Source: Arctopsyche grandis (Eukaryota > Arthropoda > Insecta > Trichoptera > Hydropsychidae). From it: DNA of 64,000 nucleotides. Numbering within the stretch: the first letter of the stretch is position 1; every line of letters begins with the position of its first letter. Positions 9,652 to 55,989 of this stretch are shown here, piece by piece. A program made the position numbers and the translations under genes. Under the pieces are notes generated by a model. That model saw only the letters and a list, made by a program, of their open reading frames with translations. It was not told where the DNA came from and ran no database searches. The DNA is taken from the NCBI RefSeq assembly GCF_051622035.1, contig NC_135355.1:30196986-30260985 (forward strand). The letters are read 5' to 3'.

Positions 9652-10097
9652 TCTAATATATTATTTGGAAAGAGACTTTGTATGTATCCTTGGTTCGTTC
9701 GTTCGTTCGTTGGTAGATCCGTGACATCATCGAACAAATGATTCGATTCATAGGCGCTGATTCGATTAGGCGTTGATTCGCCTTGGTTCAGGGGGGGCGC
9801 AGGGGGCGTAGCCCTAGACGGCAAATGCTCAGGGGGGTGCAGGTGGCGTAGCCCAAGACGACAAAGGTTCAGGGGGGCGCAGGAGGCGTAGCCCTAGACG
9901 GCAAATGCTCAGGGGGGCGCAGGTGGCGTAACCCTAGACGGAAAATGCTCAGGGGGCGCAGGTGGCGTAGCCCTAGACGGCAAAGGTTCAGGGGGGCATT
10001 TTATAAATTTTAATTTTTTTTCTGGCTTTTTTTATATTTTTTTAAAATCTTTTTTATTTTTTTATACACCCCGGGCAAAGCCGGGTAATAAAACTAG
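9652..10097 (+). mobile_element. Non-autonomous Helitron, copy B, with GC-rich array
   Basis: Begins A|TCTAATATATTATTTGGAAAG and ends with a GC hairpin (CCCCGGGCAAAGCCGGG), about ten bases, then CTAG|T. TC at the 5' end, a 3' hairpin followed by CTRR, and insertion between A and T without duplication are the Helitron hallmarks. The interior (9788-9995) is a roughly 40-bp minisatellite containing GGCGCAGGTGGCGTAGCCC. It sits head-to-tail behind copy A. Confidence 0.75.
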
Positions 10098-10463: not shown

Positions 10464-10570
10464 GATTATATGTGCATACATTATAAATATGTACATACAT
10501 ACATACATACATAATCATTCAACATGGTTTCTAGCTACCTATCAGAATATCTTCTGCCTGTACATATTCA

Positions 10571-10815
10571 TTCGGTAAATGGGCTACATCCCAAATGTGA
10601 ATCGCTACTAGGATAATCGCCGCTACGAAAATCGCTCGAGCGGTTTTCCTGTCGCACGAAAATTTGTTGCACAATAATATTGCAAATGCTTTTTTATACG
10701 AGATTTGGGCAGTTTTCTGTGCGACGAATTTTAATGTGACGGGAGATTCGCGCGAGCGATTTTCGTAGCGGTGGTTGTCCTGGTAGCGATTTACATTTGG
10801 GATGTAATCACCGAA
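10571..10815. mobile_element. Palindromic MITE with TTCGGT ends
   Basis: The ends are inverted repeats of roughly 75 bp (TTCGGT..., then TACATCCCAAATGT, then CGCTACGAAAATCGCTCG). The terminal TTCGGT is shared with the fold-back element at 29287-29550. No clear target duplication. It directly abuts the innexin-derived palindrome that follows. Confidence 0.65.
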
Positions 10816-10817
10816 CC

Positions 10818-11064
10818 ATTCATACACATTTATGCATATACATACATACAAACATACATATGCATGTTTGTATATATATATATATATGAGAAGATCTACG
10901 CTATTTGTGGTTCTGGTTCGTGATCCTCCCCATATTCTCAGGCCTGAGAAAATGGAGAATATCACGAACCAGAACCACAAAATAACGTAGATCTTCTCAT
11001 ATATGTACATACATACAAAATTACATATATATGTTTTTATGTATATGCATAAATGTGTATGAAT
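10818..11064. repeat. 247-bp palindrome containing both orientations of an innexin fragment
   Basis: The two arms (about 10818-10943 and 10944-11064) are inverted copies meeting at CTCAGGCCTGAG with no spacer. The inner roughly 60 bp of each arm matches the part of the inx2-like gene encoding the fourth membrane segment (EKIY...WFWFVI). The minus-strand reading of the right arm is the intact-frame copy (EKIYVILWFWFVIFS). The left arm has lost one base and is out of frame. The outer parts are TACATA-rich sequence also shared in inverted order (ATTCATACACATTTATGCAT). Bases such as GAGAAGATCTACGCTATT tie the left arm to the inx2-like gene rather than to inx2. It lies about 0.8 kb past that gene's stop codon. 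A transcript across it would fold into a long hairpin. Confidence 0.8.
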
Positions 11065-11561
11065 ATACATATGTATATGCATTAATGTTTATGAATTAGA
11101 AATAATTAGCTATTAGGCTATATCTAACGTAAATAAATAAATATATGTACGTTTTCAATTGAATTCGATTAATAATATTAATTTTTAGAATAAAGGAAAT
11201 TCTCGAAAATAACTCGTATAGATATGGAAGATAACTGACTTATCATGTAACGATAGACATAAAACGTATGTACATATGTATTATACGTTTATTATGTATT
11301 ATACATATACGTTTTATCCCCGATAAAATGATAAATCGATAAATCCCCCATAAAATAAATCGATAAATCGATAAATCCCCAATTGATTGGAATTTTATTT
11401 CGTCATTATTTTTGAAACATGTTTTTTAAATAAAAAAAAATAGATAATCTTAAAAATTCTTCAAAAACATGTATATGTATGTACATACATACATACACAT
11501 ACATAGGTACATATATTCGCACACACACACACACAAAATGAAATTAAACTATGCTTAACTA
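11065..11561. other. Gene-less AT-rich stretch
   Basis: Holds a cluster of ATCGATAAAT(CCCC) repeats at 11325-11390 and a CA microsatellite at about 11519-11535. It lies beyond the likely 3' end of the inx2-like gene. Confidence 0.4.
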
Positions 11562-11576
11562 TTTATTTATTTTATT
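11562..11576 (-). terminator. Candidate poly(A) signals of the inx2-like gene
   Basis: Read on the minus strand, three overlapping AATAAA hexamers occur about 255-270 bases past the stop codon at 11830. This is a normal 3' UTR length. In such AT-rich DNA the hexamer is also expected by chance. Confidence 0.4.
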
Positions 11577-11829
11577 TCCGGAAACTTAAAATATTCTTTA
11601 CATTATTGCAAAACTTAATTTATTATAATAATAAAATATCGATTTTTACAAATTTGAATATCGTAAAATTTTTCACACATCTTACGAATATATGTAAGAG
11701 AATTTATGTATATTAAATGCACTCACGGAGTGGCACGGTCACGTTGTTGTTTTTTTTATTAGAATTCATCTCGAAGTAAAAAAATAATAATTAGCTGAAC
11801 TGAAACAGAACTGCTATTTGTAATAGTTT

Positions 11830-12933
11830 TTAATAGCACGTTTTCGAGTTTGGCTTTTTTTTGAAATCTTTATCATCAGCTAGGGCAGTTATGAATTCTT
11901 TAAATATTAATCCATCCATATTTTTCTTCAGTTGAACTAGAAGGAACCAATCGCCTATTTGTCCCTTGTCGATTACGGATTTCAATTCGTTTTTGTATTC
12001 AACTTGATGGCCGAAAGGTAATATAATGTGTCTAGTGCAATGGCAGAAGATAATAATGATTCTGTATATTAGAACTAGTCCTGAGAGGATGGAGAGGATC
12101 ACGAACCAGAACCACACAATAGCGTAGATCTTCTCATTGAGGATATTGACAGGAAGCACACAAAGTCCATCAAATTTTTGCACACCACCTGAAGGACCAT
12201 ATTTGTGGAAAGTACATTTTGTTACCTTCGGAAAAACCCTCGCCATCGGATCTTCATCGTTAGGATGGACATAAGAGTGTGTGAATTGGAATACTCTATG
12301 GCCATATGTTAAGAAGTCACCGTCTAAGAAGAAGTTCATGAAGAAAATCTGTCCCACAACATTGACAAAGTTCAGTATTTCGCAGGCAAAGAATTGCCAG
12401 AAATAAATGTTATGTGAATTAAGATTATGTGAAAAGTAGTTGATGAAGGCTCTCTTTCTTGCTTCTTTGACTTTTTGCTCTACAATAGGTTGTTTCATAT
12501 CAAAGCTGAGAGTCTTAATACGATTTCCCTCGAAGGTCTTCCAAAGATATCGAGGCACATAGAAAAGCACGGCTTGAAACATAAGTACGAAACATACCCA
12601 TTGATAATATTTATGATATTTGACCTCGTCTTCCTGGTGGACGTAGGGCGCTACTCCAGGATGAGCCACATCTTTTCCAACTGTTCCCGTCAGTTTGCTA
12701 GGGATTGTGAATGTAGAATAGATCCAGCAGTATGTATCCATGACAGATTGGGGAATAACTTCATCTACGATGCAGTCTATTGGATCTCCTATGTACTGCT
12801 TCGAAGTTGCAACCAAGGAAAAAGCCACCAGCATCATAAATGTGGCCTTGTAGTGGAGTTTGAATATGGTGTTGTCGATACATAGTTTGCTAACTTTAGC
12901 TAAATGTTTAATCGATCCGAATAAATCAAACAT
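11830..12933 (-). CDS. Innexin, inx2-like paralogue (367 aa, single exon)
   Basis: Innexins form insect gap junctions and hemichannels in the plasma membrane. The frame is complete, from MFDLFGSIKH to a lysine-rich tail, and close to the usual 360-370 residues. The innexin signature YYQWV is at residues 109-113. Each extracellular loop has its two cysteines (C54 and C69; C240 and C258). Four hydrophobic segments lie at roughly 31-45, 113-127, 181-201 and 270-291. It resembles inx2 throughout. The second-loop block from TKCTFHKYGPSGG to CVLP is identical to the inx2 copy at 27677, although the DNA differs at many third positions. Main differences from inx2: an extra residue in the first loop, a divergent cytoplasmic loop and a different C-terminus ending KTCY. 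Codon use is AT-rich, unlike inx2. No intron interrupts it, so it could be an old duplicate or retrocopy. The start is chosen because MFD is conserved with inx2. I cannot assign a specific orthologue. Confidence 0.93.
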   Translation of the reverse strand: MFDLFGSIKHLAKVSKLCIDNTIFKLHYKATFMMLVAFSLVATSKQYIGDPIDCIVDEVIPQSVMDTYCWIYSTFTIPSKLTGTVGKDVAHPGVAPYVHQEDEVKYHKYYQWVCFVLMFQAVLFYVPRYLWKTFEGNRIKTLSFDMKQPIVEQKVKEARKRAFINYFSHNLNSHNIYFWQFFACEILNFVNVVGQIFFMNFFLDGDFLTYGHRVFQFTHSYVHPNDEDPMARVFPKVTKCTFHKYGPSGGVQKFDGLCVLPVNILNEKIYAIVWFWFVILSILSGLVLIYRIIIIFCHCTRHIILPFGHQVEYKNELKSVIDKGQIGDWFLLVQLKKNMDGLIFKEFITALADDKDFKKKPNSKTCY

Positions 12934-13076: not shown

Positions 13077-13970
13077 CTAGCTGTATTACCCGGCTTCGCT
13101 CAATGTTTATAATATAAACCGCTTAAACATGACTAAGCTAATTTAATTAAAAAAAAAAAAAATTTAAAAATTTAAAAAAAAAATAAATAAAAAAGGAATA
13201 AAAAAAATCAAAAAAAAATCAAAAAAAAAATCAAAAAAAAAAATTAAAAAAATCAAAAAAAAAAATCAAATTTTTTTATATTGCCTTCTAGGGCTTCGCC
13301 CTCGGCGCCCCCCTGAGCCTTTGCCTTCTAGGGCTTCGCCCCTCCACGCCCCATGAGCAATTGCCGTTTAGGGCTTCGCCCCCATGATCAGTTGCCTTTT
13401 AGGGCTTCGCCCCTCCGCGCCCCCATGATGAAAAGCCGTCTAGGGCTTCGCCCCCCTAAGTTAATGCCTTTTAGGGCTTCGCCCCCCGCGCCCCCAAGAT
13501 TAATTGCCGTTAAGGGCTTCGCCCCCCTTAGTTAATGCCTTTTAGGGCTTCGCCCCTCCGCGCCCCCATTATTGAATGCCGTTTAGGGCTTCGCCCCCCT
13601 TAGCTAATGCCTTTTAGGGCTTCGCCCCTCCGCGCCCCCATTATTAAATGCCGTTTAGGGCTTCGCCCCCCTTAGTTTATGCCTTTTAGGGCTTCGCCCC
13701 TCCGCGCCCCCATTATTAAATGCCGTCTAAGGCTTCGCCCCCATGATCAGTTGCCTTTTAGGGCTTCGCCCCTCCGCGCCCCCATTATTGAATGCCGTTT
13801 AGGGCTTCGCCCCCCTTAGCTAATGCCTTTTAGGGCTTCGCCCCTCCGCGCCCCCATTATTAAATGCCGTTTAGGGCTTCGCCCCCCTTAGTTTATGCCT
13901 TTTAGGGCTTCGCCCCTCCGCGCCCCCATGATTAAATGCCGTCTAAGGCTTCGCCCCCATGATCAGTTGG
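13077..13970 (-). mobile_element. Helitron remnant with 70-bp GC-rich minisatellite
   Basis: Minus-strand 3' end: GAGCGAAGCCGGG hairpin, about nine bases, CTAG (13080-13077) and then T. An A-rich tract (13150-13275) is followed by a minisatellite from about 13276 to 13968. Its unit is about 70 bp and alternates two half-units, each carrying AGGGCTTCGCCCC. The 5' TC end is missing because the array runs straight into the CCGGAAGT repeat that follows. Confidence 0.6.
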
Positions 13971-14298
13971 TCAGTTTTGGTCAGAATTCGTAAACCGGAA
14001 GTAGTATTTTTTTTAAAAACAATATTTCATTATTTTATTTTGACCTTTTAAATTATTTTTATCCTCTTGATATTTAATGTGTATAATAATTATACTGATT
14101 TTAAATAATTAAAAAAATTTGAAAAAAATCCGCCAACCGGAAGTAGAAATTTTGTCTTGTGCAAGTATTTGCATATATTTGCGCTCAATTTGTATCGCTA
14201 TCATAGTTATTAGTTCAATATCGAATTTTGTTTTGTAACCTTCTTATATTCCTCAAATACATAGATAAAGTCGTGGGTTGGTCACACCCGAATTTTTT
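13971..14298 (+). repeat. Dispersed CCGGAAGT repeat, partial copy
   Basis: Nearly identical to the end of the larger copy at 44780-45110, including the closing block ATAGATAAAGTC then GGGTTGGTCACACCCG. It carries CCGGAAGT twice, about 150 bp apart. It is sandwiched between two GC-rich arrays. Confidence 0.7.
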
Positions 14299-15792: not shown

Positions 15793-18513
15793 CAGTGGCG
15801 TATATTGGGTGTGTGCTAGGTGTGCGGCGCACACCCGTGAAAACCAAGTAGTATTTTAATACAAAATAATGTGTTGTTGTATAAGCAGGCATTGATGTGT
15901 ATGGTGTATTTACCGCGTGCGCTAAATGTATGGTGTATGGTGTGGTGTGCAGTCTGCAGCGTGTTGTGTGATGTGTGTATGTAGTTTGTGCGCCGCGACG
16001 AGAGAATACCTATGCCGTGCAGCAAATTGGTGGGTTTGGTTGGAGTGTGCAGGCGGATATTCGCTTGTATAGGTTTGTTCGCGATATTAAGACGTACGGT
16101 GTGCTACGACTTCAGAGCACCGCGCACCGCATCGCACCGCACCGCACCGCACCACTCGGCAATTGACCGAATGCGATGCGGCACGTGGTCTCGTACTTTT
16201 TCGCACATTCGTATTTTTATGGTCATATTATTACCTCTAATAACTAATAATGGCTAACAGTGTTCAAGACATTTTAACTATTCCGTTTTCAAATAGAAGT
16301 TTTGAGATAAAATTAAAAATAATTAAAGATGGGAAACCGTGTCCGTCTCTTCCAAATTTATCCAGTTTGCATAAAGAAAAAACAAAAGTTTACACTAGAC
16401 ATTTTTGCGTTTCAAATTATAAAAAATTCGTATGGATTACAGGCTGTGAAATTCGATCCAAACTTTTCTGCTGGCCATGTTTATTGTTCTCCAAAGATAT
16501 TAATGTGTGGAACAAAGAAGGATTTGCTGATCTCAACCATTTGACAGCAGCACTGAAGAAACACAAAGGATCGCAGGCACACGTTCAATCATTTCTTTCC
16601 ATACAAATGTTTGGCAAACAACGAATCGACGTATTAATTGACAGTCAACGTAAAGCCGAAATAAGTCGACATAATGAACAAGTAAATAAAAATAGAGATG
16701 TTTTAAAACGAATTATTAACGCAATAATCTATCTAGGAAAACAAGAACTGTCCCTGCGAGGTCACGACGAGTCATGTAATTCCGTAAACAAAGGCAATTA
16801 CATTGAATATCTAAATGCTCTTCGAGAATATGATTCTGTTTTAGATACTCTAAATACTGCTACTACCTTTCGTGGTACTTCTCCAAGTATACAAAATGAC
16901 ATAATCGAAGCAATCTCTCATGTTATTAAAGTTCATATAAAAAATGAAGTAGAGTCAGCAAGTTTTGTTGCTATTATTCTCGATGAAACTTCAGATATAA
17001 TGACAAAATCACAGCTCTCAACAGTTTTACGTTTTGTATGTAAAGGCAATGTACATGAACGGTTTATTAGTTTTACAGACGTTAGTGCTGATAAAACATC
17101 TAATGGTCTATTCTAATGGTGAACATAGTTGAAGAATTTAAAATTCAAGACAAATTGGTTGGACAGACTTATGATGGAGCAAGTGTAATGAGTGGACACG
17201 TAAATGGTTTGCAATCCAAAGTCCTCAATGCTTATCCTTTTGCTCTTTTTACACACTGTTATGCTCATGTATTGAATTTAGTATTGCAGCAAGGTCTTTC
17301 TGATATTAAAGAAAGTAAATCATTTTTTCAAACTTTAAATGGATTGTCTACATACTTTTCAAAATCTTCCAAAAGAGTATTCGCTTTACAGGAATTTGTG
17401 ACAAAAAGACTTCCCTCTGTAGCACCCACAAGGTGGAATTTTACATCTCGTTTAAGTAGCACAGTACAACAATACAGAAGTCAATTTACATATTTTTTTT
17501 CGACATGTTATAGAAAATTGTGAATTATGGGACACAGATACTGTTATAAAAGCACGAGGGTTTTTAGGCTTTTTAGAGGATTTTCAAACAATTAAACTTC
17601 TTCAATTTTTTTCAAAACTGTTTGGAATAACTGATGTTTTGTATAACATTCTTCAATCTAAATCTTCGGACGTTTTATATTGTTGTAAAAAAATTAATGA
17701 TGTTTTGCAGCAACTGAAATACGAAAGGTATAATAATTTTGAAATGTTATGGAATAATTATTTAAATGAAAAAAATGATGATCATGATCGTGGCCACAAA
17801 GATTAAAAAATTATTCAGAAGTAGAAGATAAAACTTCATTTCGTCAATTATATTTCAAAATAGTTGATAGCATAATCGCACAAGTCGAATGTAGATATTC
17901 TTCACTTTCCAAATTAGAATATTTCCACCTTCTTTGTAATGATAAATATGACGAATATAAAGAAAATTTTCCAAATGTTTTAATTAATAAATTAAAAGAT
18001 TTTTATGGATCACTGTTTGATTATATTCGATTGAAAAACGAACTCATTGTGCTATATTCCAGCTCTGAATTTTCAGAGAAACCTGTTCATGAATTAATAC
18101 AATTCATGACAAAAAATAACCTCGAATCTGGTTTTAAAGAGGTGTTTAAGCTGGGAGAATTAATATTAACGATACCAAGCAGTACAGCTTCAGCAGAACG
18201 GTCTTTTTCGGCGCTGAAAAGAATAAAAACTTGCTATAGAGGTACGCAAGGTCAAGATAGATTATGTGGCCTTAGCTTAATTTCAATAGAAAAAAAGTTA
18301 TTGGTGGAATTAAAACAGAAAGACACATTCTATGCAGACGTGATTGAAAAGTTTATGTCTCAGAAACGTCGCATTGAACTTATGTATAAATAACTAATAA
18401 ATTAAACATTTTTGTAATGCAAAACGAGTATTTTTTTTTAATTGCTAATTTTATACCCTACGCCCTACGGCATACACAGCACACCCGGTATTAACACCCA
18501 CCGTCCGCCACTG
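15793..18513 (+). mobile_element. hAT transposon, full length with intact ends
   Basis: The 2721-bp element is bounded by inverted ends CAGTGGCG (left) and CGCCACTG (right); similarity continues imperfectly for about 35 bp (GGGTGTG and GGTGTGC blocks). A perfect 8-bp duplication CAAAGCAT lies on both sides (15785-15792 and 18514-18521), the hAT hallmark. The element encodes a broken transposase (next entry). The left 450 bp is a GT-rich non-coding leader. Intact ends and duplication suggest fairly recent insertion. Confidence 0.92.
16250..18393 (+). pseudogene. hAT transposase with TTF-type zinc finger, frameshifted
   Basis: A cut-and-paste DNA transposase, also similar to the ZMYM-type nuclear proteins derived from such enzymes. 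Three segments in different frames cover it: 16250-17116 (288 codons), 17116-17523 (135 codons) and 18031-18393 (120 codons). Between the last two, coding similarity continues with several stops. The first segment has the TTF-like finger (FCWPCLLFSK, then KKHKGSQAH) and the acidic motif ILDETSD. The second has YDGASVMSG, THCYAHVLNL and a PTRW motif. The third has the hAT dimerisation region (STASAERSFSALKRIK). The start is the ATG before ANSVQDIL. At least two frame breaks plus stops make it inactive, though it could still be mobilised by an active relative. Confidence 0.88.
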
Positions 18514-19567: not shown

Positions 19568-19703
19568 GGGTGTGACCAGTTTTCTCGTGACCAATTTTTG
19601 ATTGTCACCAGTTTTAGTGTGACGGGTGACGACGTGTGACCGATCTACAGCGACTGGTTATCATGTTACCGGTTCACATATGACTAGTAGTCCGTTTACC
19701 TAA
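19568..19703 (+). repeat. Half of a fold-back element
   Basis: Matches the right arm of the palindrome at 29287-29550 (GTGTGACCAGTTTT, GTGTGACGGGTGA, GTGTGACCGATCTA), ending GACTAGTAGTCCGTTTACC, which corresponds to the left terminus of that element. Only one arm is present. Confidence 0.6.
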
Positions 19704-27676: not shown

Positions 27677-28756
27677 CTAAACGGGCGCCTTCCCCACCAG
27701 ATTGTCCGCCAGGGCCGAAATCAACTCCTTGAAGATCAGCGGATCGATATTTTTGCCCAGTTGGTACAGGACGAACCAATCTCCGATGTGGCACTCGTTG
27801 GCCACGGCTTTGACCTGCTTGTAAGGGGCGAGTCTGGAGCGGACTCGCAACAAGTACAACCTCAAACGCGTACCGGTAATTACGGCGACGCGATACGCCA
27901 GAGAAATTCCACTCAAAACGCTCAAAATCACAAACCAGAACCAGAGGAAAACGTAGATCTTCTCGTTGACTATGTTCAGAGGCAGCACGCACAGTCCATC
28001 GAACTTCTGCACCCCGCCGGAGGGACCGTATTTATGGAAGGTGCATTTGGTAACCTTAGGGAAAACCCTAGACATGGGATCTTCGCGTTCCTCCGGTTCC
28101 ATATGGGTGAAGCGCACCACGTCGCTGCCGTACGTCGAGAACTCCCCGTCCAAGAAGAAGTCCATGAAATAGATCTGACCCACGACGTTGACGAAGTTGA
28201 GGAACTCGCATATGAAGAAGCGGTAGGCGTAGAAGTTGTGCGTGTGGATGTTCAGCGAGAAGTACTCGACGAGGGCCTTTTTGCGATCGTCTTTGCACTG
28301 CTCGCTGACGATGGGGCAGTTCAGGTCCAGGATGAGCGACTTGATGCGGCCGGCCTCCCAGGTCTTCCACAGGTAGCGCGGCACGTAGAAGAGGATGGCC
28401 TGGAAGAAGAGGACGAAGCAGACCCACTGGTAGTACTTGTGGTACTTGACCTCGTCTTCTCCGTCGACGTGCGAGGCGACGCCCGCTTGCACCACGTCTT
28501 TGCCCACCCGCCCCACCAGTCTGTTGGGGATGGTGAAGGTCGAGTAGATCCAGCAGTAGGTGTCCATCACGTTCAGAGGGATCTCGTCCACGATGCAGTC
28601 GATCGGGTCTCCGATGTACTGGCGCGACGTCACCAGCAGCGAGAACGCCACCAGGATGATCACCGTGGCTTTGTAGTGCAGCCGGAATATGTTGTTGTCG
28701 ATGCACACCTGGTCGATCTTCAGCAGCCCCTTCACGGAGCCGAATACGTCAAACAT
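27677..28756 (-). CDS. inx2: Innexin 2 (359 aa, single coding exon)
   Basis: Gap-junction subunit used in epithelia, glia and germline-soma contacts in flies, usually with ogre or inx3. The frame begins MFDVFGSVKGLLKIDQVCID, matching insect inx2 almost exactly, and runs to KAPV. The first-loop cysteines are C54 and C68, the second-loop pair C238 and C256. The YYQWV signature is at 108-112. Hydrophobic segments lie at roughly 31-44, 112-126, 180-200 and 267-289. The C-terminal block GDWFVLYQLGKNIDPLIFKE is typical of inx2. The start is supported by conservation and a good context (CACCATG). The coding DNA is clearly GC-rich, unlike everything around it, and the open frames on the opposite strand are by-products of that composition. 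Length is normal and no intron is present. The neighbouring inx2-like and inx7-like genes suggest a conserved innexin cluster. Confidence 0.97.
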   Translation of the reverse strand: MFDVFGSVKGLLKIDQVCIDNNIFRLHYKATVIILVAFSLLVTSRQYIGDPIDCIVDEIPLNVMDTYCWIYSTFTIPNRLVGRVGKDVVQAGVASHVDGEDEVKYHKYYQWVCFVLFFQAILFYVPRYLWKTWEAGRIKSLILDLNCPIVSEQCKDDRKKALVEYFSLNIHTHNFYAYRFFICEFLNFVNVVGQIYFMDFFLDGEFSTYGSDVVRFTHMEPEEREDPMSRVFPKVTKCTFHKYGPSGGVQKFDGLCVLPLNIVNEKIYVFLWFWFVILSVLSGISLAYRVAVITGTRLRLYLLRVRSRLAPYKQVKAVANECHIGDWFVLYQLGKNIDPLIFKELISALADNLVGKAPV

Positions 28757-29286: not shown

Positions 29287-29550
29287 CGGTAAACGGACTA
29301 CTAGTCATATGTAAATCAGTCACAGGACAACCGGTCGCTCTAGATCGGTCACACGTGATCACCCGTCACACTAAAACTGGTCACACCCTAAAATCGGTCA
29401 ACCAGTTTTCTCGTGACCTATTTTAGAGTGTGACCAGTTTTAGGGTGTGACCAGTTTTAGTGTGACGGGTGATCCTGTGTGACCGATCTAGAGCGACCGG
29501 TTGTCCTGTGACCGGTTCACATTTGACTAGTAAAATCACCGAACCGTTAG
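29287..29550. mobile_element. Fold-back element upstream of inx2
   Basis: Two arms of about 110 bp are inverted copies (left TTCGGTAAACGG..., ACTAGTCA, CAGGACAACCGGTCGCTC; right the reverse). They are separated by a short spacer with TCTCGTGACC. The phrase GTGTGACCAGTTTTAG occurs as direct repeats next to the spacer. Terminal TTCGGT is shared with 10571-10815. It lies about 0.5 kb upstream of the inx2 start codon. No coding capacity. Confidence 0.75.
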
Positions 29551-38079: not shown

Positions 38080-40212
38080 ATGTCTCACTCTCAACCGAAC
38101 AACTCTCAACCGAATTCTGAAATTACTCACCCTCATTATCTACCTCCTCAAGTGGTGTCATACGATGGGACACACATGATTCCAGTTCATTGGATTCCGG
38201 GTGGACAAGGAATTGTGCCGAGGTATCCGAAACCATTCGAGCAATTGTATCAATTGAATGCCGATGGGACAGTGCAAGTGCTGGTCGTTGGCAGTTCTAG
38301 CAACTGGAACGGTATGCCACCGGCGAATACCCAAAATGCAACCTTTTCATTTCCACATCATTCCACTAGCAATATGCCAAGTCAGCCTTTTCTTTCTGGT
38401 GCTGGTGTTGCAAAAGTTCCCGACGTCCTACACAATGTTGAGGCTGAGTCATCGCGTCAGAATTTGCAATCTGTCGATTCGATGAATTCTCGAAACGAAA
38501 TGCCATCGAATACTTTCAACGAAAATGACATCCAGCAGTTCCGGATACCAGTTCCAACCGTTTTAAATCTATCCAGCAGGCTGGATTTTCCGATGCTTGA
38601 TAATTCATATAAGGAACCAACGCAGAGTTCTTACAATTTGTGGAAATCAAATGCACAAAACCTACAACGGATACACCGGGATGAAAATGTGACTGTTTGT
38701 CATGAATTGTATGACATTCGAAATCAAACATTGTTTAACAATGCAGTGCAAAGTACTCCAATGAGTCAAAATTTTTCGGGTTTAAAACCTTCGATCGGAA
38801 ACGAATTAAACGTTGACGTTGAATCTGGCAGCTTGAAAGTAGCCCCACGCCTGGATGATACAGTTAATGGACAACCATTCAATCAGCAAACAATGTGGAG
38901 TGTTAGTGATTTGAATAATGATTGTGACAAAATGCAAGTTTCCCCATTCAGTTCAAATCAACCCTCTTGCGATAAAAATATCCGAAATGATCATACCCAA
39001 GAATCATCAATGAGAAATACGTCACTTGATTCCCAAGATTTAACTCCAGTCATCGGACCTTTCGCTGGTGCAAATGTCGTCCCCGTATTGCCGTTGTATG
39101 CTCAGAAGAAAATTCTGAATCGATTTAAGGAAACAACTTCAAAACGTTCCATGAAAAGTGTAAATGTTACACCAAATCAATCGTTTTTGAAGATTGCACC
39201 AAAGTCACAATTTTTTACTCATCCTTATCCGCCTAAAGTTCAAAAATCTGCGAAGAAGGCTGATAATGATATTTTCACTATTAAAAAACTTGCTGAGATT
39301 TGCCCCAATGAATTTTTGAAGAATTGTCAACCTCACGATTCCGAGATGATTCTGAAACAGCCTGAGAAGCTTTCAAAACAGCCTGAAGTGATTCCGAAAC
39401 AGCCTGAGATGATTTCGAACCAACCTGAGATAATTTCGAAGCAGCCCGAGATGATTCCGAAACAGCCCGAAGTGATTTCAAAACAGCCTGAAGTGATTAC
39501 GAAACAGACTGAGATGATTTCGAAACAGCCCGAGATGATTCCGAAACAGCCTGAAATGATTTCAAAACAGCCTGAAGTGATTCCGAAACAGCCCGAGATG
39601 ATTCCGAAACAGCCTGAAATGATTTCAAAACAGCCTGAAGTGATTCCGAAACAGCCTGAGACTATTTCGAAACAGCCTGTGAAAATTTCAAAACAACCTA
39701 AGATGAAATCGAACCTGTTGGGGACGATTTTGAAAAAGCCTACGATGATTTCGAAACAACCTGAGATGATTCTGAATCAGCCCGAGAAGATTTCAAAACA
39801 GCCTGAAGTGATTCTGAAACAGCTAGAGATGATTACGAAACAGCCTGAAGTGATTCTGAAACGGCTTGGGATGATTTCGAAACTAGATAAGCCTAAGATA
39901 ATTTCTAAAGAGTCTGAGATGATTTCGAAACACCCTGAGCTAATTTCGAAACAGCCCGAGTTGCTTCCGAAGCAACCTAAAGTTGATAGCTATAAAGAAA
40001 AAAGGATCGAAACATGGACAGTTGAGGAAGTTGTAAAATTTGTGAGTGAAGTGTCTGGATGTCAATCGTTTGCCGAGGACTTTGTAAATCACGAAATTGA
40101 CGGTCAGGCTCTCGTTCTGGTGAGAGTTTCAGATTTAGTGACATCCATGTCCATGAAGTTGGGACCTGCGTTGAAGTTGGTATCTCGTATTCACCGTTAC
40201 AGTCTGATATAA
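38080..40212 (+). CDS. Heptad-repeat protein with C-terminal polyhomeotic-type SAM domain (710 aa, single exon)
   Basis: Unlikely to be chance: one open frame of 710 codons with a good start context (AAAAATGTC). Residues 1-420 are low-complexity, rich in N, S, Q and P, with PPQVVSYDGTHMIPVHWIPG near the start. Residues about 423-633 are some 30 heptapeptides of the form KQPE(M/V)I(S/P). Residues 643-710 form a SAM domain (TWTVEEVVKFV, then GCQ, EDFVNHEIDGQALVLV, MKLGPALK). The GCQ...DF...EIDGQAL...MKLGPALK pattern is that of polyhomeotic and related Polycomb proteins, where the SAM domain polymerises. The FCS zinc finger found upstream of the SAM domain in polyhomeotic is absent. The absence of introns and the different architecture suggest a retrocopy or lineage-specific gene. 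It could act in chromatin or as a self-assembling scaffold; that is inference. Confidence 0.82.
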   Translation: MSHSQPNNSQPNSEITHPHYLPPQVVSYDGTHMIPVHWIPGGQGIVPRYPKPFEQLYQLNADGTVQVLVVGSSSNWNGMPPANTQNATFSFPHHSTSNMPSQPFLSGAGVAKVPDVLHNVEAESSRQNLQSVDSMNSRNEMPSNTFNENDIQQFRIPVPTVLNLSSRLDFPMLDNSYKEPTQSSYNLWKSNAQNLQRIHRDENVTVCHELYDIRNQTLFNNAVQSTPMSQNFSGLKPSIGNELNVDVESGSLKVAPRLDDTVNGQPFNQQTMWSVSDLNNDCDKMQVSPFSSNQPSCDKNIRNDHTQESSMRNTSLDSQDLTPVIGPFAGANVVPVLPLYAQKKILNRFKETTSKRSMKSVNVTPNQSFLKIAPKSQFFTHPYPPKVQKSAKKADNDIFTIKKLAEICPNEFLKNCQPHDSEMILKQPEKLSKQPEVIPKQPEMISNQPEIISKQPEMIPKQPEVISKQPEVITKQTEMISKQPEMIPKQPEMISKQPEVIPKQPEMIPKQPEMISKQPEVIPKQPETISKQPVKISKQPKMKSNLLGTILKKPTMISKQPEMILNQPEKISKQPEVILKQLEMITKQPEVILKRLGMISKLDKPKIISKESEMISKHPELISKQPELLPKQPKVDSYKEKRIETWTVEEVVKFVSEVSGCQSFAEDFVNHEIDGQALVLVRVSDLVTSMSMKLGPALKLVSRIHRYSLI

Positions 40213-50552: not shown

Positions 50553-53500
50553 ATGTTAGATCCATTCAAAGCAGTGAAGGGCCAGTTGAAGATAAGATTC
50601 GACAAAGCCAGCATCGATGATGTAATTTTCAAGTTACACTACAGAGCAACATTTATGTTGCTCTTGGTGAGCAGTATACTAGTCACACAACGGCAATATG
50701 TGGGAGAGCATATTAAATGCTTGAGCGACTTGGATACATCTGAAAAAAAGTTTATAAATGTTATCAACACGTACTGCTTCTTCTCCAGTACTTTCACAGT
50801 TGTAAGTGTTTTTTTTTCTTCCCAGGAATGTTTTCTTGCAGATTACATAGCTGTTTAATTTTGTGCGCAAAGCACCAACGAGAAAGTAAGTAATATGTAG
50901 CGAGAATATAAATATTGTACTAATTAGGAGTCCAAATTGATAACTCGAATATTACCCATTTTTCAGTATTCATAAATTCCAATATTTATAAAATCATTCG
51001 AATGTTATTCGTTTTTTTCTCAATATTGTATAAAAAGCAGTGGCGGCTCATCCATATGGGCTGCGGGCTGCAACCCTCCCAGTACAGTACACATGCATGC
51101 TATTTTTGTCGTCTATACGGACTACGGGGCTGCAGCCCTCCCAGTATAGTACATATGCATGATATTTTTGTTTGCATTTGTTCATCGGTTTGGCAACACG
51201 CTACTACGATTCATCGCTGCAGTCCCCCCACTGTGAATTCTCACGAGGCAACACTGATTAATAGTCAACATTTCTAATCGTAAATATTAATCTATTACCA
51301 CTAAGTATAAATTGAGAAGTGGATTTGTTACACTACATAAAATGATCTACTATTACAATTACTTGCTGAAAACCAAGAATACAGGAAAATGATAATCGTT
51401 AGGATAATTAGTTATTCTTTCATTGTTTTATTTAAGATGTAGTTATATTCCATTATTTACACTATTTAAAAGATTAGAAGTGTGGAATTATTTTTTAAGA
51501 AGAGAAAATAATTTTGTAGCTGTATATAAAGTATATATATTACATTCGAATATTTTACGAATTTCATATTCGAATATTTGGGACCCCTGGTAGCAATGTC
51601 TGCCAATAAATCTGGAATCAGGTAACTATTCTGTAATCAGATTAACATTAGCCGGAGTCTGGATCATTAACTGACAAGTTGAACAGTTGCTAAATAGCTT
51701 AGTTCAGTGACATTTACGAAAATACAATATACATACTAGGGTTTCTGATTTCCCGCACTTTTCTTAGGGTGTCTGAATTCCCGGGACACGGGACGGAGCT
51801 CAGGATCGTTCCCGGGACACATGTAAAAAAAACTTTTTTTTTTCAATTTAATATATTTTTTGTTAATAAAAATATATTTATTTATTTACAAAACAATACA
51901 TAATATATCTATTAACTTGAAAAAATTTAAATATAAAAGAAAACTTATTTAACGTAGCTTTTTAAAAATACTAAAATATTTAAATGAGAATCCGAAAGTC
52001 TAATTCTAGATTTGGTACAAAAATTTCCAGCAATGGAAAAAACTCTTTTAGTCTCGGTCGAAGTTGGTTTTATTGTTAAAAGGGACGAAAACAATTTTTA
52101 ATAACCTCTTCTTATTTTAAATTATCGGTTTTTTCTCCTGTCAGCATGTATATTTTAATTTCTTTTTTAAAGTCGATGTTATTTTTATTTACGTTATTTT
52201 GTATATTCGTCTTTGATAACTCCTTATTTAATTCTTCATTAATCGTCAAATACACAATTGTTTAATCTTCATCCGAATCTAAAATAGTGTCTTCCATTGT
52301 GGAATCGTCAATACAAGAAGGATATACTCGCTTCATAATAGTTTCACCGTAGGATATACCTATACATTCGCTTTTATTACAACATTTAAATTTTTTTTTT
52401 CAGTATAAAATCAGAATTATTTAACATTTGTGTGAAAAAAACCGTTTTATGCTTTTTCTTTCTTCGATTTATTATTTCCCTTCGTGCAGTCGTGAAAATG
52501 TTGTATGTTTTCAAGATTTTTTTAAATCCAATTCCCGGGATTAAAGATAAGAATTTCCGGGACACGGGAAAACAAAAATTTCGTGAATTCCCGGGAATGT
52601 CTGTCCCGGGTCAGAAACCCTAATACATACATATGTATTGCTTTGCACTATTACGGGTACGATTTAGGTTTCAAACTGGTCTTTCAGTTGATATTTTAAT
52701 ATTAATATTTAAAGGTGAAACATTTGAACGAGAGTGCATTGCTTACTGGTAATATTCCTCATCCTGGAGTTGGCCCAGCTGTTGAAGAAGATGAGGTGAT
52801 CCATCATGCTTATTACCAATGGGTGCCTTTTGTACTCTTCGCACAAGCGTTGATGTTTTATTTGCCACATGCAATATGGAAAACGAAGGAAGGTAATATA
52901 TGTATATGTATAATAATTCCAAAGCTCTTGTATAATACTTTCTAATATATTAAATGTCGTATTTGAGGAATATAAGAAGTATAAAAAAATTCGATATTGA
53001 AACATATGTATGTACCTACACGTTGTCACATACCGGCTATGAGAGCATTTTCGATACAAAATTAAGCGCAAATGTAGGGAAAATTACACAAGATAAAAGT
53101 TCTACTTCCGATTGTTGGATTTTGTCCAAAATTGTTTTATTACTTAACATATAAATATGTTAATTTAAAAGCTCAAGATAAAATCATGAAATATTACTAC
53201 TTCCAGTTTATGAATTCTAACCAAAACCCAATCAACTCTAAGTACATAAAGAATACAAATATAAATTTTCAGCTCGATAAGTTCAGTGTTGTGGAAAAAA
53301 TAATGTGGTCACAACATTTTTGACTTCTCTAAGAGGAAAAAGTCCCACTTCCGGCTAATTAAATTAAATTTCTTTTTTATTTTCTCGTGAAGAGCATACA
53401 TGTTTAAGGGGTCGAAAAAATAGTCGAAGAATAATTGAAATAAAGTAAACTGCCACATCCGGTTGATGGGTGTTCACCAAATTTTTTATATACATAACTT

Positions 53501-55989
53501 GGTATATAAAAATTAAACTTCTAGATATGAAATTTCAGTTCAATAGACTAAAATTTTTCTGAGAAAATCATAAAAAATCGTGATGTTCTAGAGTAAAAGT
53601 ACTACTTCCGGTTGAGAATTAAAAATTTCTATTACGAGTAAAAAAAAATCAAAATTTCAGGAGATAATTTAATCCAAAAACTTAAAAAAAGAGGACACTT
53701 GTAAGGACAGGTAAAATTGTCGGTTAACTTAAAAATTTGAAAAAAAAATTGTCGTATCGATAAGCATTCCAGTAACCGATACTAAGTTTCAGTTTGATGG
53801 GACTATCGGTGTTCAAAAAATCCCCAAAATACACAGACACGCACAAACATTTTTTCTAGATCATGAAAACGTGATCAGTAATCGATTCTGAGTTCGAATC
53901 AGTCAAAACGTCAAGATCGAATTTTCGTATGATCACAAAACTTAATTGTATTGTTATTTTACTATATTGTTACTACGTACATAGATAAATTTAAAAAAAA
54001 ATCTTGACTTGGGTCTCCAAACTATGGTCCGTACGACAGAATGTGGCCAGCGGCCGTCTTTGGTCTAGCCTGTAAATTAATTTTAAAGAATCTATAAAAA
54101 CCATAAATGGGTAACATGAACTCTAGTAAATTTCCAGAATGACCGAAAAAAATGTGTCTGGTTCAGTCCGGTTCTAGTAGTTCTTAAAATATTCCTTAAA
54201 TACTTAAAATATTTGAGCATTTTCCTAAAAGGTTTAGAAACCCCTGTTTGTAATCTCTAGTGGCGAGTAAGAAATGCAATTATTACAAACACTAACTAGA
54301 TTCACCGCACATGAATTATTTTAAGTATATCGATTGTTGGTGATTACCACTGTGGATTAAATAATATTTTTTTAATTCACAACATTATTGTCAAACTTAA
54401 CTTTCAGACGGTCGATTGCAAGCATTCGTGTCTGGACTACATTTAGCTTTCGTTCCGAATTACGAAGAAGATCAAAAGAAAGATGATATGATTATCCTAT
54501 CGAAAAAAAATATTGATAACAGAATACAGGAGTTGAAAATTGAATATAAGAATAGGTTTGTTTAATTATTCAATAATGCATCAGACACATTTTTTCTGAT
54601 GAGTACATTTATATTTTTTTCTGCTTTATTAATTCAGATTTCATGCGTGGAGATCATGGTCAGTGTGGTTGGTTAGTTGTGAAGTTCTTAATCTGCTGAA
54701 TCTGATGTTTCAAATCTATCTTACCGATGTGTTCTTAGGTGGATATTTTTGGGGCATCGGTAGCCAAGTTTGGAATAATGTTGATTGGGATGACTATTTG
54801 GATCCTTTGGATGTCGTGTTTCCCAAGGTTCGCTTGAAATTTTTATAATAATACATATAATTCGTTAATTTTATCGTTGAGTAAGTTTTTTTTCCGAATT
54901 TATAAGCACAATTTAATTGGATTTTTTTTTAAAGATTGGCAATGTCATACACGATTTTCAATGTGATTTCAAAATTGCATTTGAATATATAAGTTTTTGG
55001 GTGGTGAAAAATTTTCCGAATCGATTTGGGATAGTAAAATCGGTGATCGGATAAATGCACTCAAGAGAGTCGTACTCTCGAGACATCCAAAATTTTAATG
55101 ATGCTCAAGAACTAACGCAATAGAATTCTGCAATAAAGCGTCAAGGGGTATATGTATGTTATCCGAGGGTGCTAACCTTTTTTGTGGAATTCTATTACGT
55201 AAGTTCTTCTTGAGAGCCTTTGAAAATTAGGAAACAGTGAAATCATATTAGCTTCGATATACATAAATATCGTAGCCAGGGATCTCTACAACCAACAAAT
55301 AAGTGGCAAAATTATTTCAACTGTAGGCGAAGAGTACATATTAAGATCCATAATAATTTTTTATTTTACTTAAAAATACCTTTTGATTCTTTTTAAGGTC
55401 ACAAAATGTGTTTTTTATAAATATGGTCCTAGTGGTGTAATTCAGAATAATGACGCAATGTGTGTGATGGCTTTGAACGTAATCCATGAGAAGATTTTCA
55501 CAATTTTATGGTTTTGGTATGCGATCGTCTTCATCTTTACGGTTTTAGGTAAAAAATAATTTTTGATAATGCAGACAAAATTACCTGTTCTATATTATAT
55601 TTTTCTATATATATTTTTTTTTAGGTTTAATTCATCGATTTTTAGTTTTCATACTGTTTCCAAGATCTGTAGGTTTTAATCATTTCATGTTTAAGTACGC
55701 TTGCCCTGGGAATTATAAGAGTCAAACTTTAAACATTATTAGGAGGAATTGTTATTTCGGTGATTGGTTGTTCCTATATTATTTAGGCAAGAATATGAGA
55801 GTCTACGTTTTCAAGTGAGTATTATAGATGAATAAAATATTTTGCTTTTAACATATTGTGTTATTTTATTATATTTTTTTCAGAATGTTTTTAAAGGGTG
55901 TAGCAGAAGATTTTGACCGTGGTACATTGTCGAATACTGAAGACGTCGAAACAGTTGATGACATAGAAAAACATCCTCTAAAACCATGA
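50553..55989 (+). CDS. inx7: Innexin 7-like gap-junction protein (seven coding exons, 403 aa)
   Basis: Exons: 50553-50801, 52715-52892, 54408-54555, 54638-54827, 55398-55548, 55625-55814, 55884-55989, all with GT/AG introns; summed length 1212 bases including stop, in frame throughout. First-loop cysteines fall at C56 and C75, the signature YYQWV at 116-120, second-loop cysteines at C259 and C277. Residues RQYVGEHIKCLSD, NTYCFF, YYQWVPFVLFAQAL and EKIFTILWFWYA resemble fly inx7 more than inx2. Exon 3 encodes the variable cytoplasmic loop and is the least conserved part. The C-terminus is short (ends KHPLKP). Four hydrophobic segments are present. An acceptor immediately before the ATG implies a spliced leader. 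Introns 1 and 2 (1.9 and 1.5 kb) are full of transposons. Gap-junction subunit; inx7 in flies acts in nervous system and embryonic epithelia. Confidence 0.93.
50925..51589. mobile_element. hAT-like element in inx7 intron 1
   Basis: Left TAGGAGTCCAAATT and right ATTTGGGACCCCTG resemble the ends of 48803-49650. Flanking octamers GTACTAAT and GTAGCAAT match at six of eight positions. A separate CAGTGGCGGCTCATCC terminus near 51040 suggests a second, nested insertion with an undefined right end. ATATTCGAATAT palindromes occur near both ends. Confidence 0.5.
51737..52622 (-). mobile_element. hAT element with 8-bp duplication in inx7 intron 1
   Basis: Ends TAGGGTTTCTGA on both sides in inverted order, with CCCGGGACACGGG subterminal repeats; perfect duplication ATACATAC (51729-51736 and 52623-52630). 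The minus strand from about 52076 to 51955 still encodes the hAT dimerisation signature (KRVFSIAGNF, then RIRLSD and LVFLKSY). The rest of the transposase is deleted or decayed. Confidence 0.88.
53020..53995 (+). repeat. Dispersed CCGGAAGT repeat in inx7 intron 2
   Basis: Opposite orientation to the 42.7-kb copy. Motif positions are partly mutated (ACTTCCGATT, ACTTCCGGCT, ACATCCGGTT, ACTTCCGGTT). Ends with GATCAGTAATCGATTCTGAG, then TACTACGTACATAGATAAA, the same terminus as at 42720 in reverse. Confidence 0.7.

Follow-up and report, generated by a model that had tools for sequence, protein, structure and literature searches.

A spacer-less palindrome built from a fragment of a neighbouring innexin exon in Arctopsyche grandis, probably an inert relic of an inverted duplication

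The window, by which we mean the whole analysed stretch of 64,000 nucleotides, was taken from contig NC_135355.1 of Arctopsyche grandis (assembly GCF_051622035.1, forward strand, positions 30,196,986 to 30,260,985). It contains an intact minus-strand innexin ORF (Pfam innexin, PF00876, E 3.4e-116), called the parent below, and a palindrome that carries a piece of it (Table 1). A search of the Protein Data Bank returned Innexin-6 as the sole match, and a literature search for an intronless inx2 innexin gave no match. Two innexins had been counted in the window by the original prediction. There are three, when tblastn pieces on the plus strand at 50553-55815 are included. The third innexin is apparently multi-exon, with pieces at 50553-50807, 52742-52897, 54675-54830, 55395-55547 and 55624-55815. 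The window thus appears to hold an innexin cluster, in which two members are single-exon ORFs and one is split.

Several other features were recorded in the window. A GC-rich minisatellite with a 72-bp period and GGGCTTCGCCC units occupies 13281-14026, about 350 bp upstream of the innexin start, and an inverted relative of it lies at 9792-9991. A foldback element, distinct from the one in Table 1, is present in two copies at 29299-29532 (about 540 bp upstream of the start of the second innexin) and 19587-19703. A plus-strand ORF at 16250-17116 has a DUF4371 match and is followed by further ORFs at 17116-17523 and 18031-18393; together these presumably represent a broken hAT-like transposase. 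A 710-aa ORF (38080-40212, plus strand) combines a long tract of ISKQPEM-type repeats with a SAM domain close to the C-terminus. Rfam 15 gave no match in the window at gathering score, and a tRNA search returned none.

Table 1. Coordinates of the palindrome, its innexin-derived parts and the neighbouring features (positions within the window).
Feature	Positions	Strand	Remarks
Foldback (MITE-like) element	10572..10817		abuts the left arm
Left arm of palindrome	10818..10942	+	125 nt; outer part TACATA/TA-rich, then innexin fragment in gene sense
Left-arm innexin core	10886..10942	+	93% identity to 12080-12137; longest exact match 23 nt
Right-arm innexin core	10943..11000	-	90% identity to 12080-12137; longest exact match 19 nt
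Right arm of palindrome	10943..11064	-	122 nt; repeats the left arm in inverted orientation
Three AATAAA words on the gene strand	11562..11576	-	first bases 11576, 11571 and 11567; between gene and palindrome
Parent innexin ORF	11830..12933	-	intact, single-exon, 367 aa
Parent stretch within the innexin ORF	12080..12137	-	residues EKIYAIVWFWFVILSILSG

The two arms abut at CTCAGG|CCTGAG with a spacer of 0, as was seen in the sequence itself, with a repeat finder and by gapped alignment. Of the 126 columns in the alignment of arm against arm, 109 were identical, 12 were mismatches and 5 contained gaps. Both arms are identical over their outermost 27 nt, up to the first gap. The TACATA/TA-rich outer portion measures 68 nt in the left arm and 64 nt in the right arm. 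Together with the match to the innexin ORF, these results bear out the original prediction of a spacer-less palindrome built from an innexin fragment, with arms of about 125 bases and shared TACATA-rich flanks. When centres with zero spacer were required to match in at least 75% of 39 ungapped pairs, the window yielded 10942 alone and three Markov-simulated windows yielded none. A 183-aa ORF spans the palindrome on the minus strand (10531-11082). It was set aside as a coding sequence, and is probably a chance ORF in palindromic, microsatellite-rich DNA.

The innexin core of each arm was compared with the parent by blastn within the window. The left core was identical to the parent in 54 of 58 columns (E 1e-16), the right core in 52 of 58 (E 3e-14). 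By the general topology of innexins, the matching stretch, EKIYAIVWFWFVILSILSG, would be the fourth membrane segment. Both the predicted match of about 60 bp in each arm and the predicted distance of about 0.8 kb to a minus-strand parent were thus recovered; 766 bp separate the palindrome end (11064) from the stop-side end of the parent ORF (11830). The original prediction had also proposed that the arms be aligned with the innexins, and here the parent was the best source. The second innexin shared only 40 (left) and 43 (right) of the 58 positions and was rejected; blastn showed a 38-bp match to it at 27927-27964 (84-87%). The third innexin was rejected likewise, with alignment scores of 32 and 34 versus 94 and 86 for the parent.

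We then considered how the two cores have diverged. They differ from each other by about 10% (6 of 58 columns). Relative to the gene, and numbered in gene sense, position 51 is changed in both arms. Positions 21 and 50 show three different states across left arm, right arm and gene. Private changes are found at position 45 in the left arm and at positions 16, 41 and 42 in the right arm. The common stem is therefore short compared with the private branches, and capture of the fragment and its inversion probably took place nearly simultaneously, some time ago. Coding constraint is not seen: of the seven variable core sites, five fall on codon position 1 or 2, and a one-base gap is present in the left arm. 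The right arm shares the state of the second innexin at positions 16, 42, 50 and 51. With the second innexin it shares 43 of 58 positions, against 39 of 58 for the parent, which fits a copying of the present parent sequence less simply. This likeness may reflect chance C-to-T change in AT-rich DNA; an older state of the parent is another possible explanation.

Copy number was addressed by searching the 475.7-Mb genome. With the 115-bp core as query, the matches listed were the locus itself (on both strands) and the parent gene. A longer query, 10780-11100, gave at least 59 matches, with 40 of 326 candidates scored. Among the matches listed for this query, those that contained the core were again the locus itself and the parent gene, each on both strands. 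The other listed matches covered the end of the foldback element (query positions 1 to about 61), the TACATA/TA parts (about 38-110 and about 213-313), or both. Two of the sites matched by outer parts were inspected, and consisted of a foldback-element end plus TA repeat and of plain microsatellite. Further copies of the core were thus not found, in a search that skips common words, that can let weak copies slip by and whose empty result is not proof of rarity. Indeed, the search passed over the second innexin, where blastn had detected a 38-bp match, and therefore weak partial copies may be missed.

As a comparison, palindromes with a spacer of up to 10 nt were collected from 264 kb, made up of the window plus twenty stretches of 10 kb. 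This gave 32 centres, of which 22 were removed as TA-repeat-rich or of low entropy and 10 were kept at a triplet entropy above 4.0, a cut-off set post hoc. Eight of the nine other non-microsatellite palindromes had further copies within the 264-kb sample, some of them just partial. The ninth, the one without further copies, has arms of 31 nt. Short-spacer palindromes are therefore common here and are mostly part of repeats. Viral and prokaryote collections were also searched for relatives or host contamination, and nothing was found.

The foldback element next to the left arm was considered separately. A possible 6-bp target-site duplication, ATTCAT, is present at 10566-10571 and 10818-10823, the latter copy inside the left arm. 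When the flanks of the element were joined at three trial cuts, pairing increased from 126 to 143-145 columns and the score from 163 to 167, 172 and 170. The gain lies in TA-rich sequence, and the cuts differ from an exact collapse of the possible target-site duplication. The possible duplication and the small gain in pairing suggest, in highly repetitive sequence, that the element may have been inserted later than the palindrome. A longer palindrome interrupted by the element is possible.

RNA folding was calculated for both strands. For 10800-11080 the plus strand gave -139 kcal/mol (z -19.3) and the minus strand -161.2 kcal/mol (z -20.9), and in both cases 0 of 200 shuffles folded as low. 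A long stem, as originally predicted, is therefore supported on both strands, and the strand of the gene folds better. For 10818-11064 alone the values were -156.3 kcal/mol on the minus strand and -135.0 kcal/mol on the plus strand. The differences between the arms comprise 8 transitions and 4 transversions. G:U pairing is retained on the minus-strand RNA for seven of the transitions and on the plus-strand RNA for one, a bias with a binomial probability of 0.035 one-sided and 0.07 two-sided. Neutral simulations, which begin with a perfect palindrome and omit gaps, reached an energy gap of at least 21.3 in 10 and 12 of 600 runs (one-sided) and in 23 and 22 of 600 (two-sided). An initial simulation of 200 runs with a cut-off of 22 had given 1% and 3%. 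The energy asymmetry of the core taken separately was unremarkable (42 of 600 and 87 of 600).

The same G:U count was applied to other inverted repeats. Seven others in the window, picked from 25 listed repeat pairs, were split 20 to 18 when pooled. Outside the window, the eight foldbacks of the sample gave 15 plus to 19 minus (hand-summed). In the adjoining foldback element (10585-10806), G:U pairs are kept on the plus-strand RNA 11 to 1 (two-sided 0.006), the opposite way to the palindrome, and thus a strand bias need not mean function. A mutation asymmetry, with C-to-T and A-to-G changes on the transcribed strand, would lead to this pattern in both arms even in the absence of selection. Support for a self-targeting hairpin from the strand-biased G:U pattern is weak.

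Four explanations of the palindrome were weighed against each other. An artefact of assembly, or of a read folding back, comes to mind because spacer-less palindromes are a known kind of library artefact, and the original prediction had named it as an outcome that would refute the hairpin. A single-molecule fold-back would yield near-identical arms. The present arms show 12 mismatches and 5 gapped columns against each other, and both carry changes from the gene that the other arm lacks, so we regard an artefact as highly improbable. Membership in a mobile foldback or MITE family that captured a gene fragment would agree with the frequency of foldback elements in the window and sample, one of which adjoins the left arm. 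This origin was set aside, since dispersed copies of the core were not listed in 475.7 Mb (weak copies may be missed), in contrast to the eight of nine other palindromes that recur within 264 kb. By eye, no clean target-site duplication was seen flanking the whole palindrome. A mobile-family origin is accordingly rated as improbable.

The original prediction had gone further and proposed a self-targeting hairpin locus. An active hairpin RNA (hpRNA) would require that a minus-strand transcript, made by read-through from the gene or from a unit of its own, folds and is cleaved by Dicer-2, and that the resulting siRNAs silence the innexin. In this route, antisense siRNAs from the left arm would guide Ago2 to the innexin mRNA. 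Several observations are consistent with it. The stem spans several siRNA lengths, the homology is antisense to one innexin gene over the 58 columns, and the minus strand is the one that folds more stably and on which divergence preserves G:U pairs 7 to 1. The antisense arm of a minus-strand transcript would be the left arm. This arm resembles the gene more closely than the right arm does and contains the 23-nt exact run and all three exact 21-mers. With up to two mismatches to the gene, 17 of 105 21-mers of the left arm and 30 of 102 of the right arm qualified, compared with 0 of 1260 controls. The second innexin had at least 3 (right arm) or at least 4 (left arm) mismatches per 21-mer, while the third was compared by alignment score. 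There is also a published precedent, the hpRNA locus hp58, which is situated adjacent to its progenitor gene (PMC10317233).

Against this stands the small number of exact gene-matching 21-mers, 3 of 105 in the left arm and 0 of 102 in the right arm. AATAAA words on the strand of the gene also stand between gene and palindrome. They start at 11760, 11624, 11576, 11571, 11567, 11399 and 11293, and normal gene transcripts therefore probably end without the palindrome. The adjoining foldback element, which has no known gene target, shows a stronger bias on the opposite strand, and the core-only asymmetry is unremarkable. Thus the inverted gene fragment, the long stem, the intact parent nearby and the failure to find core copies elsewhere agree with the predicted hairpin locus, while the scarcity of exact 21-mers and the poly(A) signals ahead of the hairpin do not. 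On sequence grounds the locus has features of an hpRNA and is not classed as one. We consider an active self-targeting hpRNA possible, yet unlikely. The fuller version is more doubtful: a single-copy hpRNA outside Drosophila, derived from and downstream of its own target, in which innexin read-through would give a 120-bp stem and left-arm siRNAs, and thereby a cis-linked negative feedback with selection for G:U-tolerant pairing on that strand.

We favour, as the probable explanation, a single-copy relic of an inverted duplication involving the neighbouring innexin exon, capable of forming an hpRNA and probably inert. In such a history, a TACATA/TA-rich stretch located about 1 kb from the innexin exon would have received a copy of a 58-bp piece of it. 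The fragment and about 65 bp of the receiving stretch would then have been duplicated and inverted without a spacer, for which a template switch during replication or fold-back repair would be the simplest route. A copy and its parent, part of what a template switch would leave, are both present. The arms would since have diverged by drift. Any RNA crossing the palindrome would form a hairpin of about 120 bp, and the present state is most likely inert and slowly decaying. Both the mechanism of origin and the lack of function are inferred. Counting against the relic, the G:U bias towards the minus strand and the asymmetry in folding energy could point to transcription of, or selection on, a minus-strand RNA.

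The locus was compared with known systems. In Drosophila simulans, hp58 lies adjacent to its progenitor CG17385 and, like the palindrome, is an inverted repeat from a one-exon fragment near the progenitor gene (PMC10317233). Its siRNAs are fully complementary, and pri-hp58 and its target rise in dcr-2 mutants (PMC10317233). In contrast, the palindrome described here is known from sequence alone, and its gene match is 58 bp long and imperfect. Another locus of that report, hp88, originated within the 3' part of a non-coding transcript, and genuine hpRNAs are identified there by two signs, Dcr-2-dependent siRNAs of 21-22 nt and an increase of the primary transcript in dcr-2 mutants (PMC10317233). 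In the moth Trichoplusia ni, the share of non-transposon siRNAs that map to predicted hairpins is below 4.6% (PMC5844692). Template switching is a documented source of perfect stems in a single event (PMC8794818). Hairpins of this kind have a nearby reverse-complement copy and a stem made in one event without a mobile element, as is proposed for the palindrome, which differs in having also brought in a gene piece from about 1 kb away. Plant MIR genes are likewise reported to be inverted duplications of a target-gene fragment with the capacity for antisense small RNAs (Allen et al. 2004), whereas the palindrome is of animal origin, with a stem of about 120 pairs, and is known from its sequence. 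MITE and foldback elements resemble it as inverted, stem-forming DNA and differ in that the palindrome has a gene-derived centre, of which further copies were not found in the genome search. A literature search on innexin and endo-siRNA, limited to titles and abstract openings, gave no innexin hairpin within that scope.

The origin of hairpin siRNA loci has been termed an ongoing conundrum in one hpRNA study (PMC10317233). If inert, the palindrome would be an ordinary rearrangement scar. As a gene-fragment palindrome for which no further copies were found, which lies beside its intact parent and whose arm changes can be ordered against the gene, it cleanly illustrates the first step, at the level of DNA, toward hairpin siRNA loci. 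The locus thereby lets one ask whether such births are mostly silent or are quickly recruited for silencing.
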